Positions 16,657 to 26,482 of a DNA stretch of 37,284 bases are shown piece after piece. Position numbers and translations under genes: made by a program. The stretch is from the NCBI GenBank assembly GCA_016873095.1, contig VGYC01000058.1, positions 1 to 37,284 of the forward strand, given 5' to 3'. Positions within the stretch are counted from its first letter, which is position 1. Every line of letters begins with the position of its first letter. The notes under the pieces are model-generated. The model did no database searches. It saw only the letters and a list, made by a program, of their open reading frames with translations, and was not told where the DNA came from. Source of the stretch: Planctomycetota bacterium (GTDB taxonomy: Bacteria; Planctomycetota; Planctomycetia; Gemmatales; Gemmataceae).

Positions 16657-18519
16657 ATGACGAGTTCCTCAAGGTTCGGCACTCTGTTTCTCACGGCTAT
16701 CGGGACGCTAATCGTGGCGGCATCTGCCACGCTCGTGTTCCGGTGGCTGATGCTGCCTGAGCCCGTGCAAGATGACTCGAAAGGCGAACCGGACCGCGGC
16801 TTTCGGGAATGTGCTCTGCAGTGCGGCTTGAATTTTCGCATGGCTTTCTTGCCCAAGGAGCAGGGCGAGAAATTCAAGATCAACCTGTACGATCACGGGT
16901 CGGGAGTGGCGATCGCCGATTATGACGGTGACGGCCACGACGATATCTACTTCGTCAATCAACTCGGTCCCAATGCTCTCTACCGCAATCGAGGCGATGG
17001 CACCTTCATCGATGTCACTCCTCAGGCCGGCGTGGCGCTTGGTGATCGTGTATGCGTGTCGGCAACGTTTGCCGACTACGACAATGACGGCCACAAGGAC
17101 CTGTACGTGCTGAGCACGCGCGGCGGCAACGTGCTGTTCCGCAATCAAGGCAACGGAACTTTCAAGGACGTTACTCGCGAAGCCGGCCTGATGCACGTCG
17201 GACATTCCCAGTCCGCCACGTTTTTTGATTACGACGGCGACGGCCGCCTCGACCTGTTCGTGACCAACACGGCGCGCTGGACGCTGGCGACCTACGATGC
17301 CGCACACCGCTATTATCCCGGCAAGTCCATCGCTGTTGGAGATGAGTTCACGAGCAGTCCGAAGGAGTCCAACATCCTCTATCGCAACAACGGCGACGGC
17401 ACTTTCAGCGATGTGACCAAGCAAGCTGGTCTTTCCGGGCGCGGCTGGAGCGGCGATGCCGTGGTCCTTGATTACAATCAGGACGGCCGGCTTGATCTCA
17501 TGGTGGGCAACATGTTCGGCCCGTCGCAGCTGTATCGCAACAACGGCGACGGCACCTTCACCAACGTCACGCGCGAGGCTCTTGGGCCGACCTCGTTCGG
17601 CTGCTGCGGCGTCAAGGCATTCGATTTCAACAACGACGGCAAGCTGGATCTCTTTCTGGCCGACATGCACTCGGACATGTGGATGGGGCTGGACAGGGAC
17701 CACGCCTCGCTACGCCAGGCCAAGACTCATCAGCGCACGCGCTTTCCAAACCTGGTTGGACCGAATGTCATCGACCATCCGGAATACAAGAAACAGGACC
17801 AGGTCAATGCGGACCTGCTAGGCTATCGAGTGGAGGAAGTAGTCTACGGCAACACGCTTTTCAAGAATCGCGGCAATGGCAAGTTCGAGGAGGTATCCGG
17901 TTCGGCTAACATGGAAACCTTCTGGCCGTGGGGCGTGGCCACGGGAGATTTCGACAACGACGGCCACGAGGACGTGTTCATGCCTTCCGGCATGGGCTAC
18001 CCATTCTATTACTGGCCCAATCAACTGATGATGAACAACGGCAACGAGACGTTCCGCGAGCGCGGTCGGGAACTGGGGATCGAACCCCCCGTACGCGGCA
18101 TGTATCTGGACGAGCGCATCGGCGGAGACCGGGCTTGCCGCAGTTCGCGGAGCGCGGCCGTGGCGGATTTCGACGGCGATGGACGCCTCGATATCGTCAC
18201 GAACAATTTCAATGACCAGCCGTATTACTTTCGGAACAAGCTGCCGGCTCGAAACTATCTTGCGTTTCGCTTGCGCGGCACCAAGAGCAATCGTGATGCG
18301 ATCGGCGCGGTGGTCACCTTGCACCTGGGCAAGGAAATCATGGTCCGGCAGGTCGCGCCGGCCGGCGGCTTCCTGTCACAGTCGTCGCACGACGTGCACT
18401 TTGGCCTGGGGGATCGTAGCCATGTCGATCAGGTCCGAATTCGCTGGCCCAGCGGCATTGTTACCGTCATCGCCAATCCTGCGATCAATCGCCGGCATGA
18501 TCTGACGGAAGCACCCTGA
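16657..18519 (+). CDS. CRTAC1-type FG-GAP/VCBS repeat protein with ASPIC/UnbV domain (paralogue 1)
   Basis: A 620-residue envelope protein. An N-terminal hydrophobic segment (LFLTAIGTLIVAASATLVF, about 9-27) is a signal anchor. The body is a beta-propeller of FG-GAP repeats with calcium-type loops DYDGDGHDD, DYDNDGHKD, DYDGDGRLD, DYNQDGRLD, FNNDGKLD, FDNDGHED, each followed by LYRNNGDGTFxDVT units. The end is an ASPIC/UnbV domain: LRGTKSNRDAIGAVVTLHLG and PAGGFLSQSSHDVHFGLGD, then VRIRWPSG. The family is named after human cartilage acidic protein 1; its bacterial role is not known. It is the first and most divergent of three tandem copies. The ribosome-binding site is weak. Confidence 0.9.
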   Translation: MTSSSRFGTLFLTAIGTLIVAASATLVFRWLMLPEPVQDDSKGEPDRGFRECALQCGLNFRMAFLPKEQGEKFKINLYDHGSGVAIADYDGDGHDDIYFVNQLGPNALYRNRGDGTFIDVTPQAGVALGDRVCVSATFADYDNDGHKDLYVLSTRGGNVLFRNQGNGTFKDVTREAGLMHVGHSQSATFFDYDGDGRLDLFVTNTARWTLATYDAAHRYYPGKSIAVGDEFTSSPKESNILYRNNGDGTFSDVTKQAGLSGRGWSGDAVVLDYNQDGRLDLMVGNMFGPSQLYRNNGDGTFTNVTREALGPTSFGCCGVKAFDFNNDGKLDLFLADMHSDMWMGLDRDHASLRQAKTHQRTRFPNLVGPNVIDHPEYKKQDQVNADLLGYRVEEVVYGNTLFKNRGNGKFEEVSGSANMETFWPWGVATGDFDNDGHEDVFMPSGMGYPFYYWPNQLMMNNGNETFRERGRELGIEPPVRGMYLDERIGGDRACRSSRSAAVADFDGDGRLDIVTNNFNDQPYYFRNKLPARNYLAFRLRGTKSNRDAIGAVVTLHLGKEIMVRQVAPAGGFLSQSSHDVHFGLGDRSHVDQVRIRWPSGIVTVIANPAINRRHDLTEAP

Positions 18520-18574
18520 AACCTGGCTGCATTAATCTCGCCTTCCCCGTGACCGCACTCAAACTGGATGGTCG

Positions 18575-20446
18575 ATGAACACAGCGAACAGCTTGCTTGG
18601 CCGCCTTGCTTTCCTTGCCGTGGCCCTGTCCAGTGCCGTGCTGCTTGGCTGGTGGCTTTTCTTCTCTGCAGAAAAGCCCGATCCCAACGAGAAATCGAAC
18701 GCGAAGCAACGCGCGGGCGGATTCAAGGATGTTGCCCGCGCCTCGGGCATCACATTTCACATGTCGTTCTTGCCGAATGAGCAAGGAGAGAATTTCAAGA
18801 TCAATCTCTACGACCACGGCTGCGGCGTCGCTGTCGCCGATATCGATGGCGATGGTTTCGAGGATTTGTATTTCCTCAATCAGCTCGGCGCCAATGCCCT
18901 GTACCGGAACAAGGGGGACGGAACTTTCAAGGACGTGACGCAAGCAGCCGGCGTTGGGCTCGGAGACCGGATCTGCGTTGGCGCCACGTTTGCGGACTAT
19001 GACAACGATGGCCATCCGGACCTGTACGTAACCAGCACGCGCGGCGGCAATGTTCTTTTCAAGAACCTGGGCAATGGCAAGTTCCGGGATGTCACCAAGG
19101 AGGCCGGCGTCGATCTGGTGGCACACTGTCAGACGGCGGTGTTTTTCGACTACGACAACGACGGCTTTCTCGACCTGTTCGTGACGTGCACGGCTAAATG
19201 GACGACGAGTTTCGATCGTGCGGCGGGTTATTATCCGGGCCTGGGCGACCTTCTGGAAGTGGCCACCAGCCCCCGCGAGTACAACGTACTTTACCGCAAC
19301 AACGGCAACGGCACGTTCAGCGACGTCACGGTCAAGGCCGGTCTGAAGGGTGTCGGCTGGGGGGGTGACACCAGCGTTTTCGATTTCGACGAAGACGGCC
19401 GCATCGACTTGCTCGTCACGAACATGTTCGGCCGCTCGCTGCTGTATCGCAACAATGGCAACGGCACCTTTTCGGACGTGACAGAGCAGGCGCTCGGGCG
19501 CACCTCGTGGGGCGCGATCGGCTCCAAGGCTTTCGATTACGATAACGACGGCAAGCTCGACCTGATGATCGTTGACATGCATTCCGATATGTGGCTGCCG
19601 CTGCACCAGCAAACCGACGATACATTGCTGGAATACATTCGCAAGCACGAGAAGATGCGCTATGAACGCGTCAGTGGCCCCCTGGTCGAACTGGACAAGC
19701 GCAAGGTCTTGCACGAGAGCAAGCTGGCAGACACGTTTCAGATCGATTACAAGCGTGTGATTTTCGGCAACACGCTTTTCAAGAACCTGGGCAACGGCCG
19801 GTTCAAGGAGGTCGCGGATCAGGCCGGGGTAGAAACGTTCTGGCCCTGGGGCATCGCCACCGGCGATTTCAACAACGACGGCTTTGAGGATGTCTTCCTG
19901 CCGTCCGGCATGGGATTTCCTTACTTCTACTGGCCCAATCGTCTACTCATGAATCAGGGCAAGGGCACGTTTGCAGAACAATCGGCAGAGCAAGGGCTGG
20001 AACCGCCTCTGGGTGGCATTCTTCAGGAAAAGAAGATCGGCGACAAGCCAGCCACGCGCAGTTCGCGCTGTGCCGCCGTTGCCGATTTTCGCAACGTCGG
20101 ACGACTCGACATCGTCACCAATAACTTCAACGACATCCCCTACTACTATCAGAACCAGTTTCCGCAGAAGAACTACATCTCCTTCCGACTGCGCGGCACC
20201 AAGAGCAACCGGGACGCCATCGGCGCCGTGGCCAGGCTGCGCCTTGGCGATAAGACCATGATTCGCCAGGTCCATGCCGCCGGCGGCTATCTGTCGCAGT
20301 CGTCGCGCACGCTGCACTTCGGCCTCGGCGATCACGCACACGTGGATCGCGTCGAGATTCACTGGCCCAGCGGCGTGCGACAAGTGATGAACGCGCCGGC
20401 CATCAACCGCTTGCACAGCATGGTCGAACCGGACCAGAAGAATTGA
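18575..20446 (+). CDS. CRTAC1-type FG-GAP/VCBS repeat protein with ASPIC/UnbV domain (paralogue 2)
   Basis: A 623-residue protein of the same architecture as its neighbours: signal anchor (LAFLAVALSSAVLLGWWLFF, about 9-28), KINLYDHGCGVAVADIDGDG and five or more further D-x-D-x-D-G calcium loops, a conserved DMHSDMWLPLHQQ segment near residue 335, then HAAGGYLSQSSRTLHFGLGD and EIHWPSG in the UnbV domain. It lies 55 bases after paralogue 1 and is closest to paralogue 3, with which it shares a 62-base perfectly identical stretch (19076-19137). The family is presumed to be a calcium-stabilised propeller outside the cytoplasm. The start has only a weak ribosome-binding site (GGATGG). Confidence 0.9.
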   Translation: MNTANSLLGRLAFLAVALSSAVLLGWWLFFSAEKPDPNEKSNAKQRAGGFKDVARASGITFHMSFLPNEQGENFKINLYDHGCGVAVADIDGDGFEDLYFLNQLGANALYRNKGDGTFKDVTQAAGVGLGDRICVGATFADYDNDGHPDLYVTSTRGGNVLFKNLGNGKFRDVTKEAGVDLVAHCQTAVFFDYDNDGFLDLFVTCTAKWTTSFDRAAGYYPGLGDLLEVATSPREYNVLYRNNGNGTFSDVTVKAGLKGVGWGGDTSVFDFDEDGRIDLLVTNMFGRSLLYRNNGNGTFSDVTEQALGRTSWGAIGSKAFDYDNDGKLDLMIVDMHSDMWLPLHQQTDDTLLEYIRKHEKMRYERVSGPLVELDKRKVLHESKLADTFQIDYKRVIFGNTLFKNLGNGRFKEVADQAGVETFWPWGIATGDFNNDGFEDVFLPSGMGFPYFYWPNRLLMNQGKGTFAEQSAEQGLEPPLGGILQEKKIGDKPATRSSRCAAVADFRNVGRLDIVTNNFNDIPYYYQNQFPQKNYISFRLRGTKSNRDAIGAVARLRLGDKTMIRQVHAAGGYLSQSSRTLHFGLGDHAHVDRVEIHWPSGVRQVMNAPAINRLHSMVEPDQKN

Positions 20447-20602
20447 CGCGTGACAGAATTGATGCGCGACGGCACTCGTTAATACGTTCACGGCGCAATC
20501 CGCTGCCGTTCACCAAATTCTCATCGTTGTTCAGCTATCCTCTATGAATGCAGCAGCGATGCCCGCATTCCGCGAGCAAGCGCGTCAGGAACGGAGCGAT
20601 CC

Positions 20603-22462
20603 ATGCGCGGCAACGTTTTGCTTGGCTTGCTGGCCGCGTTTCTCTTCGCAGCCCTGGCACTTGCCTTTTTCATCGATCCACACCGGAGCCCGGAAGAACC
20701 GCGCGACTGGAATGAACTGGGCGCTGGCGGCGGGTTCAAGGAGTCTGCGCGGCAGGCGGGCATTGCATTTCGCATGAAATGCCTGCCAGGCGAGCAGGGC
20801 GAGGACTTCAAAATCAACCTGTACGATCACGGTTGCGGCGTTGCCGTCGGAGATTACGACGGTGATGGTTACGAAGACATCTACTTCGTGAATCAGCTCG
20901 GCACAAACGCCCTGTACCGAAATCGCGGTGACGGATCGTTTGAGGATGCGACCCGCTACGCCGGAGTCGGCCTCGGGGACCGTATCTGCGTCGGTGCTAC
21001 CTTTGCGGACTACGATAACGATGGGCACGCGGACCTGTACGTTACCAGCACGCGCGGCGGCAATGTTCTTTTCAAGAATTTGGGCAACGGCAAGTTCCGG
21101 GATGTCACCAAGGAGGCCGGCGTCGATCTGGTGGCACACTGTCAGACGGCAGTGTTTTTCGACTACGACGGCGACGGTTTTCTCGACCTATTCGTGACGT
21201 GCACGGCCAAATGGACGACCAGTTTCGACCGTGCCGCGGGATATTACCGAGGCGCGGCCGATCTTGTGAACCTGGCCGGGAGTCCACGCGAATTCAATGT
21301 GCTCTACCGCAACAACGGCAATGGCACATTCAGCGACGTCACTGTCAAGGCTGGCTTGAAGGGAGTCGGCTGGGGGGGAGACACCAGCGTTTTCGATTTC
21401 GACGAGGACGGCTACATCGACCTGCTCGTGACGAACATGTTCGGGCGTTCGCAGCTGTACCGCAACAATGGCGATGGCTCATTTGCCGACGTGACGGACA
21501 AAGCTCTGGGACGTACCTCATGGGGCGCGATCGGCTCCAAGGCCTTCGATTTCGATAACGACGGCAAACTCGACTTGCTCATTGTCGACATGCACTCCGA
21601 TATGTGGCTGCCTGCCGATGTGCTGGCCAGTCAGCAGGTCGCCGAATTCATGAAGAAGAACGAGAAGGTCCGTTATCCCGGGGTCACCGGACCGTCCGTG
21701 CTCCAAAAGAATCTCAAGGCGCAGGACGCGGAACGAATGATTGCCGCCCAGTTTCAGATCAAGTACGACCGTGTGATTTTTGGCAACACGCTGTTCAAGA
21801 ACCTTGGCGGCGGGCGCTTCAAGGAAGTTGCCGACGAGGCCGGTCTGGAAACGTTTTGGCCCTGGGGAATCGCCACGGGCGACTTTGACAACGACGGCTT
21901 CGAGGACGTGTTCCTGCCTTCGGGCATGGGCTATCCCTACTTCTACTGGCCCAATCGCTTGCTGATGAATCAGGGCGACGGCACTTTCGCGGAGAGTGCA
22001 GCCAAGGAGGGAATCGAACCGCCGGCGGGGGGCCAGCACCTTCCAGAGAAAATCGGCAATGTGCCGGCAACGCGAAGCTCACGCTGCGCGGCCGTCGCCG
22101 ATTTTCGCAATAATGGGGGACTCGACATCGTCACCAACAACTTCAACGACGCCCCTTATTACTTCAAGAACCAGTTTCCGCAGAGGAACTACCTTTCACT
22201 CCGACTGCGCGGCAGCAAGAGCAACCGCGACGCCATCGGCGCCGTAGCGCGGCTGCGCCTTGGAGACAAGACTGTCGTTCGTCAGGTCCATGCGGCCGGC
22301 GGCTATCTGTCGCACTCGTCGCGCACGCTGCATTTCGGGCTCGGCGATCAGCGCCACGTGGATCGCCTCGAGATTCAATGGCCCAGCGGCTTGCGGCAAG
22401 TGATCGACGCGCCGGAGATCAATCGCCTGCATCGCATCGTCGAACCGGCCGCAACAAGGTGA
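20603..22462 (+). CDS. CRTAC1-type FG-GAP/VCBS repeat protein with ASPIC/UnbV domain (paralogue 3)
   Basis: A 619-residue third copy. It has a signal anchor (LLGLLAAFLFAALALAFFI, about 6-24), FG-GAP repeats with DYDGDGYED, DYDNDGHAD, DYDGDGFLD, FDEDGYID, FDNDGKLD and FDNDGFED loops, and a C-terminal UnbV domain. The segment after DMHSDMWLP differs from its siblings and may be where specificity lies. GGAG six bases before ATG 20603 is the best ribosome-binding site of the three. The 156-base gap before it could hold its own promoter. Its stop overlaps the region of the next start (TGATGTG), so it is tightly linked to the first double-MBL gene. Confidence 0.9.
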   Translation: MRGNVLLGLLAAFLFAALALAFFIDPHRSPEEPRDWNELGAGGGFKESARQAGIAFRMKCLPGEQGEDFKINLYDHGCGVAVGDYDGDGYEDIYFVNQLGTNALYRNRGDGSFEDATRYAGVGLGDRICVGATFADYDNDGHADLYVTSTRGGNVLFKNLGNGKFRDVTKEAGVDLVAHCQTAVFFDYDGDGFLDLFVTCTAKWTTSFDRAAGYYRGAADLVNLAGSPREFNVLYRNNGNGTFSDVTVKAGLKGVGWGGDTSVFDFDEDGYIDLLVTNMFGRSQLYRNNGDGSFADVTDKALGRTSWGAIGSKAFDFDNDGKLDLLIVDMHSDMWLPADVLASQQVAEFMKKNEKVRYPGVTGPSVLQKNLKAQDAERMIAAQFQIKYDRVIFGNTLFKNLGGGRFKEVADEAGLETFWPWGIATGDFDNDGFEDVFLPSGMGYPYFYWPNRLLMNQGDGTFAESAAKEGIEPPAGGQHLPEKIGNVPATRSSRCAAVADFRNNGGLDIVTNNFNDAPYYFKNQFPQRNYLSLRLRGSKSNRDAIGAVARLRLGDKTVVRQVHAAGGYLSHSSRTLHFGLGDQRHVDRLEIQWPSGLRQVIDAPEINRLHRIVEPAATR

Positions 22463-22463
22463 T

Positions 22464-24101
22464 GTGCAAGCAGCGGCGGACAAGACCATGAATGAAGAGC
22501 GTTTTCTGCCACTGTCCCGAGCGAAGCGGCGACTCATCGTCGGCATCGTCCTGCTGACATTTGTCCCGGTGCTTTGCTACCTGTGGTTCAAGGAGCGGCT
22601 AGGAGATCCTGACCTCCTGGCGAGCGTCCCCGCCCTGGGGCCCGTTCCGGTGACGGTCGTGCCGGGGGTGCACCTGCTTGGGGGATTGGCTCCCGCCGCT
22701 GCCTATGTCATTGAATCCAGCAGAGGCCTCATCCTGATCGACGCCGGACTGGAACGCGACGCGTCTGTCTTGAAGGCCCAGTTGGCGGCCCTGGGCCTGG
22801 ACTGGAAGCGTTTGCAAGCGATCTTCCTCACGCACATGCACCCGGATCACTCGGGCGGCGCCGAACACCTCCGCGAGCTTACCGGCGCCATCATCCATGC
22901 GGGCGGCGGCGACGTCGATGTTCTGCTTTCGCCGCCGCTGCATACTCCGGACGAGCAGCTGATCGCGCATTGGCCGTCACATTCGACCAAGGTAAATGTG
23001 CGACTGCGCCAGGACCAGACCATCGTTATCGGTGGCGTGCGCATTCATGCCCTGACCACACCCGGCCACAGCCCAGGGAGCATGTGCTACCTCGTGGAAC
23101 GAGGCCAGCTGCGGATCCTTTTTTCCGGCGACGTCATCATGACGCTCGGTGGCCCCAAAGTCTCGAAATCCAAGTTGACGAGACCTCTGGGGACGTATAC
23201 CGCTTACCTGTCACCCTTCTTGGGCGGCAGTGCCCAGGGGTTCCTGAACACGTTCCGGAAGCTGGCAGCGCTGCCACCTCCCGACTTGGTTCTGCCGGGA
23301 CACCCCCGGATGGACCAGACGTACCGCCGTCCGGCCATGTCGCAGGAGCGCTGGCGCGCCTTGCTCGATGACGGCATTCGCGAGATGGACCGCTTGCTAG
23401 CCCGCCTTTCCCGGGACGGCGCCCTGTTTCTTGACGGCGCTCCGAGACAGGTCTTGCCCGGCATGTACTACCTCGGTGATTTCCATGGCCATCCCGTCCC
23501 CACCTGGTTTGCCGGCTCACGACTGCACCTGATTGATGCACCGGGCGGCCCGGGTCTGGGAGACTTCGTCCGATCGCGGCTGGCCCAGCTGGGAGCCAGC
23601 CCGGAATTACCCGACGTCGTGATGTTGACTTCATGCGCGCCGGAGGCCATGGCCGGCCTCGGAGAACTGCTGGCACAGGGCGGTTCGTCTGTGGTGGTTG
23701 GCAAGGCCGGCATCGAGACAGTCAAGGGCCTCTGCCCGCGCAAGACGGTTATCCAGGCGGCGGAGGAATTACGTGGCGACGAATGGTCGGCGGTCACGGC
23801 GATTGCGTTGCCGGCGCCGGGGCCGGCATCGATTGCCTATCTCGTTCGCTGCGACAAAAAGCAGGTGCTATTCTCGGGGCGCGCTCCAGCGCCGCTCAAC
23901 AATCGGCTCGCCATCAAGCGCCTGGTTGGGGAACGCGACGCCCGGCAGAATGATTTCGCGCTGCGGGCCGCGCTCGATCTGCTTGCCGCACATAGGCCGG
24001 ACGTGTGGCTGCCCGCAGCGTCGTTGCTCGGCTTCAATGCGCTGCTTTACGACGATGACTGGCAAGAACTCATCGAGGAAAACCGGCGCTTTATCAAGTA
24101 G
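22464..24101 (+). CDS. Membrane-anchored double metallo-beta-lactamase-fold protein (paralogue 1)
   Basis: A 545-residue protein with a membrane helix at about 24-41. Residues 60-300 form a complete MBL domain: THMHPDH at 123-129, His202 in TPGHSPGS, Asp223 in FSGDVIM and His280 in VLPGHP, all the expected zinc ligands. Residues 340-545 look like a second, degenerate MBL fold: LHLIDAPGGPGLGDFV mirrors the first-domain strand LILIDAGLERDASVL, and VVMLTSCAPEAMAGLGEL occupies the place of the THxHxDH loop without its ligands; KQVLFSGRAP mirrors FSGDVI. Active sites face outward if the N-terminal helix is the anchor. The substrate is unknown. GTG 22464 has AGGTGA before it; ATG 22488 is an alternative start. 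Confidence 0.82.
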   Translation: MQAAADKTMNEERFLPLSRAKRRLIVGIVLLTFVPVLCYLWFKERLGDPDLLASVPALGPVPVTVVPGVHLLGGLAPAAAYVIESSRGLILIDAGLERDASVLKAQLAALGLDWKRLQAIFLTHMHPDHSGGAEHLRELTGAIIHAGGGDVDVLLSPPLHTPDEQLIAHWPSHSTKVNVRLRQDQTIVIGGVRIHALTTPGHSPGSMCYLVERGQLRILFSGDVIMTLGGPKVSKSKLTRPLGTYTAYLSPFLGGSAQGFLNTFRKLAALPPPDLVLPGHPRMDQTYRRPAMSQERWRALLDDGIREMDRLLARLSRDGALFLDGAPRQVLPGMYYLGDFHGHPVPTWFAGSRLHLIDAPGGPGLGDFVRSRLAQLGASPELPDVVMLTSCAPEAMAGLGELLAQGGSSVVVGKAGIETVKGLCPRKTVIQAAEELRGDEWSAVTAIALPAPGPASIAYLVRCDKKQVLFSGRAPAPLNNRLAIKRLVGERDARQNDFALRAALDLLAAHRPDVWLPAASLLGFNALLYDDDWQELIEENRRFIK

Positions 24102-24136
24102 TCTCGGACTATCGCGTAGCGAAGTCGTTGTACACC

Positions 24137-25747
24137 ATGCAAAGGTCCACGCCACCATCGCGAACGTTGATCGGAGGTTTTATTTTTCTGCTCATGGCGA
24201 CGTTGTTGCTTTACGGATGGCACGCTACACGCGAATCTTCTCCAGCCACCGCTGAACCTGCCGCTCTTCTTGGACCCACTGCCCTGACGATCGTGCCGGG
24301 GATTCATCTTCTGGGCGGGCTGGAGCCCGCGGCGGCGTATGTCGTGGACACCTCGGCGGGGCTGGTCCTGGTGGATGCAGGGCTCGATGCCGACGCCGGC
24401 GCGCTCAAGAAGCAGATGGCCAAGCTCGGCCTCGACTGGCAGCGGCTGCGCGCCATCTTCCTGACGCACGTGCACGGCGACCACAGCGGCGGCGCCGAGC
24501 ACCTGCGCCGCGCAACGGGGGCGACGGTCTACGCGGGAGCCCGGGACGCCCAGATCCTGCGCGCGGGCAAGCCGCGCTCCGCTTTCTTCGGTTCGCTGTT
24601 GTGGCGCGGGACGGCACAGCCAACCGCCGTGGACGTGGAATTGCACGGCAACGAGCGCATCGCCATCGGCAACGCGGTCTTTCACTCCTTGGCCAGTCCC
24701 GGCCACAGCCCGGGCAGCGTCTGCTACTTGCTGGAAATGGACGGAAAGCGCGAGTTCTTCTCCGGTGACGTGATCATGTCCTTGACCGGTCACGCGTTAT
24801 CGATCTCCAAGCTCAAACGGCCGCTGGGAACCTATGCCGCATACTTGTCCCAGCGTGGTCGTGGCGATGCCGTCGCCTTCCTCGATACGCTGACCCGGCT
24901 GCGCGCGCTCCCCGTTCCAGATCTGGTGCTGCCCGGCCATCCACGCAATGATGGCACACCGCAGAGCCCGCGTCTGTCGGAAGCGCGCTGGCAGGCGCTG
25001 CTGGATGACGGCATTGCCGACATGAAGCGGCTCATCGCCCGCGCGCAAGCCCATCCGCCCAGCTTTCTGGACAGCGGTCCGAAGCGGCTCTCGACTCATC
25101 TCTATTTTTGCGGTCTTCTCGAAGGCGCTCCGGTCTACGGTTTTGTGGCCGCGTCGCGGTTCTTTGTCGTGGACGCGCCGGGCGGAGCGCTGCTGACCGA
25201 TTTTGTGTCTTCGCGCATGCGGGAGCTGGACAAGGCATCCGCGACGCCGGCAGCGCCAACGGCCGTCCTGCTCACGTCCGGAGGTGAGCGTGCAACGTCC
25301 GGGCTCGCGGACTTGGTGAAGCGAACCGGGGCCACGGTCGTGGTCGCCGCCGACGGCATGGCCAGGGTGAAGGAGATCTGCCCGCCCGGCACCCGGATCA
25401 TTTCTGCCGCGGAATTGCCGGAGCAAGGCTGGTTCGAGGCGCGCTCCAGCGCGCTGCTGGGGCCGGGCCTGGCCACCGTGGCTTATCAGGTCGTCCTCGA
25501 CGACAAGAAGATCCTGTTCTCCGGTGGACTGCCGGTACCGGTCCACAACGAAATCGCCGTGCGACGGCTCTTTGCTGACATCGAGGCGCGGCGGAGCATT
25601 GCCGAGTTCCTCGGCTCCCTGAAACAGCTCGAACAGTTCCACCCCGATGCCTGGCTGCCCTCCTGGCCCCTGGAGGGGCACAATGCCAACCTCCATGACC
25701 GCGACTGGCAAGAAATCCTGGAAGACAACCGTGACCTGGTGCGCTGA
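24137..25747 (+). CDS. Membrane-anchored double metallo-beta-lactamase-fold protein (paralogue 2)
   Basis: A 536-residue paralogue of the preceding gene, similar along its whole length. A membrane helix (LIGGFIFLLMATLLLYGW) lies at residues 11-28, THVHGDHSGG at about 110-119, SPGHSPGS, FSGDVIM and VLPGHPRND supply the remaining zinc ligands. The second half again lacks ligands: VLLTSGGERATSGLADL in place of THxHxDH. Both proteins end in a similar NLHDRDWQEILEDNRDLV segment, so the C-terminal half is conserved despite losing its metal site. ATG 24137 is chosen; a TTG nine bases earlier is also open. No strong ribosome-binding site is seen. It is 35 bases after paralogue 1 and 42 bases before the selenoprotein gene. 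Confidence 0.82.
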   Translation: MQRSTPPSRTLIGGFIFLLMATLLLYGWHATRESSPATAEPAALLGPTALTIVPGIHLLGGLEPAAAYVVDTSAGLVLVDAGLDADAGALKKQMAKLGLDWQRLRAIFLTHVHGDHSGGAEHLRRATGATVYAGARDAQILRAGKPRSAFFGSLLWRGTAQPTAVDVELHGNERIAIGNAVFHSLASPGHSPGSVCYLLEMDGKREFFSGDVIMSLTGHALSISKLKRPLGTYAAYLSQRGRGDAVAFLDTLTRLRALPVPDLVLPGHPRNDGTPQSPRLSEARWQALLDDGIADMKRLIARAQAHPPSFLDSGPKRLSTHLYFCGLLEGAPVYGFVAASRFFVVDAPGGALLTDFVSSRMRELDKASATPAAPTAVLLTSGGERATSGLADLVKRTGATVVVAADGMARVKEICPPGTRIISAAELPEQGWFEARSSALLGPGLATVAYQVVLDDKKILFSGGLPVPVHNEIAVRRLFADIEARRSIAEFLGSLKQLEQFHPDAWLPSWPLEGHNANLHDRDWQEILEDNRDLVR

Positions 25748-25789: not shown

Positions 25790-26482
25790 ATGGATCCAGA
25801 TCATTCACAGGTCCCACGTCAGCACGAGATCAAGCGGCGGCCGATGTGCCGAGCCCTGTTCCGCAAGAGAACATGGCTGGGCATGACCGGCATGGCCTTG
25901 CTGGCTGGGACATACTTCGGCCTCGGCGAGCAGTCGCGTCCGGAGGCCCTGGTGGCGGTCGAGGGCAACCTGCATGTCGGACAACCAGCGCCGGACTTCG
26001 AACTGCTCGAGGCCGCCAGCGGCCGCAATGTGAAGCTGTCTTCCTTCAGGGGCAAGAGAGCCGTCGTGTTGATATTCGGCAGCCTGACCTGAACACCGCG
26101 ACTTGGCCGGTCTGGCCAGATCTCAGAGTTGGCCCAGCGTCACAAGGGCCAGGCACAATTTTACTTCGTCTACATTCGCGAAGGACACAAGATGCTGCCG
26201 GTCATGCGCAACGGCATCATCGCCATCGACAAGATTGAAGAGGCCCGCGACTTCGCTGAGCGCTGCCAGCGCGCCAGGACCTGCGGCACGAACCTCGGCC
26301 TTTCCGTGCTCGGTGATGGCGCGGACAATGCCGCCGGCGCCGCCTACGCCGCCTGGCCGCAACGTGTCTATGTGATCGGTCTCGACGGCTTGATCACATT
26401 CAAGGGCCGATCGGGAACCATGACCGGGCAAGACTTGCCCCTGGCACTGGATCGCTTGCCAGCTCCGGGCGGCCTGGATTGA
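25790..26482 (+). CDS. Selenocysteine-containing iodothyronine deiodinase-like thioredoxin-fold protein (TGA 26090 read as Sec)
   Basis: I read this as one 230-residue gene with Sec at position 101. Residues 27-46 are a membrane anchor. VGQPAPDFELLEAASGRNVKLS and RAVVLIFGSLT then open a thioredoxin fold; the next codon is TGA (26090-26092), and the same frame continues with GQISELAQRHKGQAQFYFVY, IREGHKM, DNAAGAAYAAWPQRVYVI and FKGRSGTM up to a TGA at 26480. Deiodinases have the active site FGSxTU followed by a strand ending VYI-E-H and a late NNANIAYG-type segment, so both halves are homologous to one family and TGA sits exactly at the catalytic position. A SECIS-like hairpin follows immediately. 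AAAGGA lies three bases before the ATG. Bacterial members are presumed to be redox enzymes; an iodinated substrate is not implied. A nonsense mutation of an ancestral Cys codon is the alternative. Confidence 0.85.
26090..26122 (+). promoter_or_regulatory. Bacterial SECIS element following UGA-Sec
   Basis: Eleven bases after the TGA, TTGGCC (26103-26108 region) pairs with GGCCAG (26114-26119), one pair being a G-U wobble, and closes the five-base loop GGTCT (26109-26113). Beyond a C-A mismatch two more pairs (GA with TC) extend the stem. The loop is identical to the GGUCU apical loop of the E. coli fdhF SECIS, whose G and U contact SelB, and sits only two bases closer to the UGA. Confidence 0.78.

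Follow-up and report, generated by a model that had tools for sequence, protein, structure and literature searches.

The plus-strand gene at positions 25790–26482 of the 37,284-nt stretch of DNA analyzed here (the window) encodes, with a probability that we put at about 0.88, a selenoprotein belonging to the deiodinase-like family of bacteria (PF00837). A single reading frame, a match to PF00837, the interchange of selenocysteine (Sec) and Cys among homologs, a covarying hairpin, the presence of selA, selB and selD, TGA-containing paralogs and the Foldseek comparison together make it very probable that this is a real selenoprotein gene and not a pseudogene.

The gene comprises 230 codons plus a TGA stop, and the sole interruption of its frame is an in-frame TGA at 26090–26092, the predicted Sec codon 101. 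Reading through this codon gives a product of 230 aa in which residue 101 has the context FGSLT-U-TP, bearing out the proposal in the initial annotation that two segments lie in one frame with only the TGA between them. The GC contents of the three codon positions are 0.65/0.47/0.78 before the TGA and 0.66/0.49/0.75 after it, in agreement on both sides with the neighboring genes; the downstream part is therefore coding in the same frame. The start lies 42 nt 3' of an MBL-fold gene and is preceded by a Shine-Dalgarno-like GGAAAGGA. The basic N-terminus and the weak hydrophobic stretch that follows it (residues 30–46; segment 25790–25927), whose best 17-residue hydropathy is only 1.22, may form a signal peptide or a membrane anchor. 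Automatic annotation would split or truncate deiodinase-like genes that contain a TGA in this way.

The readthrough protein matched Pfam T4_deiodinase (PF00837) with 58.1 bits (E 1e-15), against a gathering cut-off of 27 bits, and the deiodinase/thioredoxin-fold domain spans residues ~60–211 (25967–26422). Weaker matches to AhpC-TSA and Redoxin are expected, as these belong to the same fold superfamily. Searched against the PDB, the family profile found mouse Dio3 (4tr3) at 3.8e-36 and Dio2 (9h48) at 4.5e-31. An AlphaFold2 model of the protein had a mean pLDDT of 76.6, with much of the core above 90 and low values at the ends, and the top two Foldseek matches of this model were 9h48 (mouse Dio2) and 4tr3 (mouse Dio3), in support of the proposed deiodinase-family fold. 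The deiodinase insertion motif AHPxDGW is absent from the window protein, which reads REGH-KML, and the nearest clade of this copy has AHPDS or AHPGS without DGW. As the motif is variable within the PF00837 family, its absence does not exclude the protein from the family.

Our alignment of 57 sequences combined copies in the host genome with those of its relatives and of named contigs. At position 101, 29 of these have Sec (TGA) and the other 28 have Cys, which supports the initial placement of Sec at the catalytic position; the Cys homologs sought at this residue were thus found. Position 101 comes directly after GSxT, where the first helix of the fold begins. The residue before it (T100) is invariant, as are His133 (57/57), Asp176, Pro190 and Gly200, and the window copy keeps all eight invariant columns of the alignment. 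The spacing of 32 residues between Sec and His133 is identical in mouse Dio3 (4tr3), and the active-site histidine of Dio2 is His162 (PMC11592359). Glu131 and Cys165 also lie in the domain; Cys165, which 10 of the 11 nearest relatives share, is a candidate resolving Cys.

In the phylogeny of these sequences the window copy lies within a Sec clade (support 0.956), of which it is the longest branch, and its nearest clade contains 10 Sec forms to 1 Cys form. Parsimony with midpoint rooting placed Sec at the root and required four Sec/Cys changes, compared with at least 14 when labels were shuffled; Sec is thus likely the ancestral state in the sampled tree. The window copy is without the usual PPF and AHP residues, and this loss, along with its branch length, makes relaxed constraint possible. 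No relative above 50% identity, as would be used for dN/dS, occurs among the available sequences. The Sec/Cys pairs of this family constitute natural material for asking what Sec adds to such a protein.

A hairpin resembling a bacterial SECIS element follows the TGA at 26103–26119 (+). It consists of a 6-bp stem and a GGUCU loop (26109–26113), with the sequence UUGGCC-GGUCU-GGCCAG and 16 nt from the UGA to the loop. The window sequence alone is weak evidence for this element: the folding of the region does not exceed that of shuffled sequences (z = -0.39), in isolation the hairpin loses out to a longer and more stable alternative, and 6% of synonymous recodings also form six pairs there (0.09% do so with the exact GGUCU loop). 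An Rfam scan of the window gave no match.

The comparative evidence is strong. All six pairs are present at the exact offset in 17 of the 29 Sec sequences and in 0 of the 28 Cys sequences, and four of the six pairs show changes on both sides among the Sec sequences. Standard pairs fill 95.6% of the pair cells in 19 Sec genes (window included) picked for a hairpin at the window-class position, a percentage inflated by that choice, and 19 cells have double-sided changes. The covariation in these genes, which the choice does not inflate, is 0.519, compared with 0.130 after shuffling and at most 0.147 after sliding. Across 19 Cys genes these columns are 41% paired, with a covariation of 0.155. The window hairpin is the positional homolog of this covarying structure, which lends support to the earlier suggestion of an fdhF-like SECIS with a GGUCU loop. 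Covariation of the element is accompanied by paired amino-acid changes, as in the segments RRQSGD (CGC CAG TCT GGC GAC) and RSQSGY (AGC CAG TCT GGC TAC), whose residues change jointly because the changed bases pair, a case of RNA acting on protein.

Most of the other Sec sequences have a different hairpin, with the loop GGUCA situated 5 nt more downstream; a second SECIS class of this kind, with loop GGUCA or GGUCU and 5 nt farther from the UGA, was seen in L066, L029, L027, L044, L042 and L073. L057 (G011:C274:12768-13232), the Cys member of the window's clade and its nearest Cys relative, retains five of the six SECIS pairs, and its genome (G011) has no SelB above the cut-off. The L057 hairpin is likely a relic SECIS decaying after a change from Sec to Cys.

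The host assembly is an 8.36-Mb draft of 548 contigs, 95.5% complete and 3.3% contaminated. Its selB and selA genes adjoin on contig C81 and selD is on C117; none has internal stops and all score above curated cut-offs (381, 571 and 287 bits for selB, selA and selD, respectively), so that three of the four sel genes the initial annotation had proposed as a check are intact. Across the taxonomic family, SelB exceeded the cut-off in all 23 genomes with the TGA form, and in 58 of the 72 genomes lacking that form (Fisher p = 0.02), in lists compiled by hand for which the exact TGA position is confirmed in the aligned sequences only. The host genome also carries, at L168 (G000:C31), tandem deiodinase-like genes of another Sec subgroup, each interrupted by a TGA (19378–19854 and 20596–21081).

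An intact selC was not found in the host draft by Rfam, by blastn or by a covariance model built from relatives, while a tRNA-Sec of ~95 nt was present in 12 of the 12 relatives tested. RF01852 matches of 47–52 bits were considered as candidates; ARAGORN called these tRNA-Ser or tRNA-Leu, and they are therefore not selC. There was no tRNA beside selAB on C81. Two pieces of the gene were located by blastn: a 40-nt 5' piece extending up to the anticodon loop at G000:C6:70507-70546 (L209:10508-10547), and an 18-nt 3' piece on G000:C242 (L211:9228-9245). The 5' piece has exactly the sequence of the 5' part of the tRNA-Sec in G023 and then gives way to unrelated DNA, in which brxA and brxB lie 8–9 kb further along. 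These observations make it possible that a BREX-bearing island has integrated in selC. The simplest reading would be that the island was inserted in selC and that the intact copy is missing from the assembly.

The same pieces could mean instead that the integration cost the host its tRNA-Sec, so that the gene is a former selenoprotein gene in which UGA-101 now acts as a stop or is suppressed by a near-cognate tRNA. Its support is that the only parts of selC found were the 40-nt 5' piece on C6, with the BREX genes nearby, and the 18-nt 3' piece on C242. Against this, the incompleteness and fragmentation of the draft leave room for a missing gene, and selA, selB, selD and three TGA genes are all intact. 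Islands integrated in tRNA genes, moreover, normally carry a short 3' tRNA end at their far end and leave an intact tRNA at the other, and the 18-nt piece would be just such an end. We thus regard loss of tRNA-Sec as improbable; if true, loss of selC to a BREX island with selA, selB, selD and at least three UGA genes still intact would be a snapshot of the loss of the Sec trait.

More improbable still is a pseudogene, a deiodinase-like gene in decay whose TGA arose by nonsense mutation. Such decay would suit the longest branch of the clade and the loss of several near-invariant residues, and translation without Sec decoding would cover the first 100 codons only. However, the same codon is TGA in 28 other aligned sequences, a second lesion is absent across the 230 codons, the codon-position GC is equal on either side, and both the eight invariant columns and a hairpin at the homologous offset have been kept. 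Misreading of a Cys codon (TGC or TGT) as TGA through a sequencing or assembly error has, in our estimation, hardly any chance of being correct: half of the relatives do have TGC or TGT at codon 101, but the hairpin, missing from the Cys forms, is present in the window, the nearest clade is predominantly Sec, and there are two more TGA paralogs in the genome. A real selenoprotein gene remains our preferred reading.

Upstream of the selenoprotein gene are three tandem FG-GAP/ASPIC-UnbV paralogs (16657–22462) and two tandem MBL-fold paralogs (22464–25747). An operon with the MBL and FG-GAP genes, as first suggested, is not conserved: blastp of the window neighbors against ~13–20 kb around the gene in each of eight close relatives found no MBL or FG-GAP homologs, and their only match was a distant FG-GAP protein on contig C31 of the same genome. 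In three relatives the flanks encode a mannosyltransferase, an FAD oxidoreductase, HEAT/cytochrome c and a glycosyltransferase, with no common context pointing to a function. Among named contigs, the nearest relative (L086) is from a Planctomycetia MAG, and the host genome has PSCyt1/PSD1 genes of planctomycete type; on these two grounds we take the host to be a planctomycete. L086, L097, L100, L102 and L132 are redoxin/peroxiredoxin-like frames from other bacteria in which a TGA falls in frame within the part matched by the query, and some of these may be further selenoproteins.

A mechanism can be proposed for the selenoprotein. SelB carrying Sec-tRNA would bind the hairpin past UGA-101 and direct insertion of Sec, and the thioredoxin/peroxiredoxin-type fold would set Sec101 beside His133 and Glu131. 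The selenolate might then reduce a putative substrate such as an organic halide, a peroxide or an oxidized thiol. Cys165 could close a selenylsulfide, which a thioredoxin-like reductant would reopen. The probability given at the outset applies to a selenoprotein of this family and does not extend to the proposed substrates or to Cys165 as the resolving residue.

A 2005 study reported deiodinase-like proteins with Sec or Cys in bacteria, together with their bacterial SECIS elements, and suggested that they have a redox function (PMC1088965); a further count of them was made in the GOS data (PMC2398784), and in 2026 they were still listed as having no known function (PMC13188914). Our literature search found no paper specifically on planctomycete deiodinase-like selenoproteins, and the main text of a planctomycete genome paper that surveyed selenoproteins is silent on deiodinases (PMC4807772). 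The kind of protein is thus already described, and the initial annotation overestimated its novelty: the window gene adds one more, diverged member to a family already known. The rarity that it supposed is not supported either, as the PF00837 domain was present in 74 of the 149 genomes searched, many with an in-frame TGA, so that deiodinase-like proteins are common in the planctomycete group sampled, occurring in about half of its genomes.

The window protein shares with the Sargasso Sea and GOS proteins the PF00837 domain, a catalytic Sec or Cys and a bacterial SECIS right after the UGA (PMC1088965, PMC2398784). It differs in being diverged, with TPR for PPF after the Sec and a His133 without the following Pro, and in coming from a planctomycete genome, whereas the sequences listed in those studies are from marine metagenomes. 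The SECIS of E. coli fdhF has the same GGUCU apical loop and is also directly 3' of its UGA, although at a distance of 18 nt compared with 16 nt in the window gene; the 6-bp window stem is of other sequence and has no obvious counterpart to the fdhF lower stem, and the fdhF product belongs to another protein family. Bacterial deiodinase-like proteins are prokaryotic relatives of the thyroid-hormone deiodinases, and the window protein has in common with vertebrate Dio1–3 (4tr3, 9h48) the thioredoxin fold, the GSxTU motif, a His 32 residues past the Sec and a conserved C-terminal half. In contrast to the vertebrate enzymes, in which the SECIS is in the 3' UTR and the residues at the conserved His read HPSDGW, the window gene has its SECIS inside the coding region and a different sequence after the His. 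The likeness, as judged from sequence and model, would be one of family and fold and would not imply thyronine deiodination. Thyroid hormone is not expected in the host.
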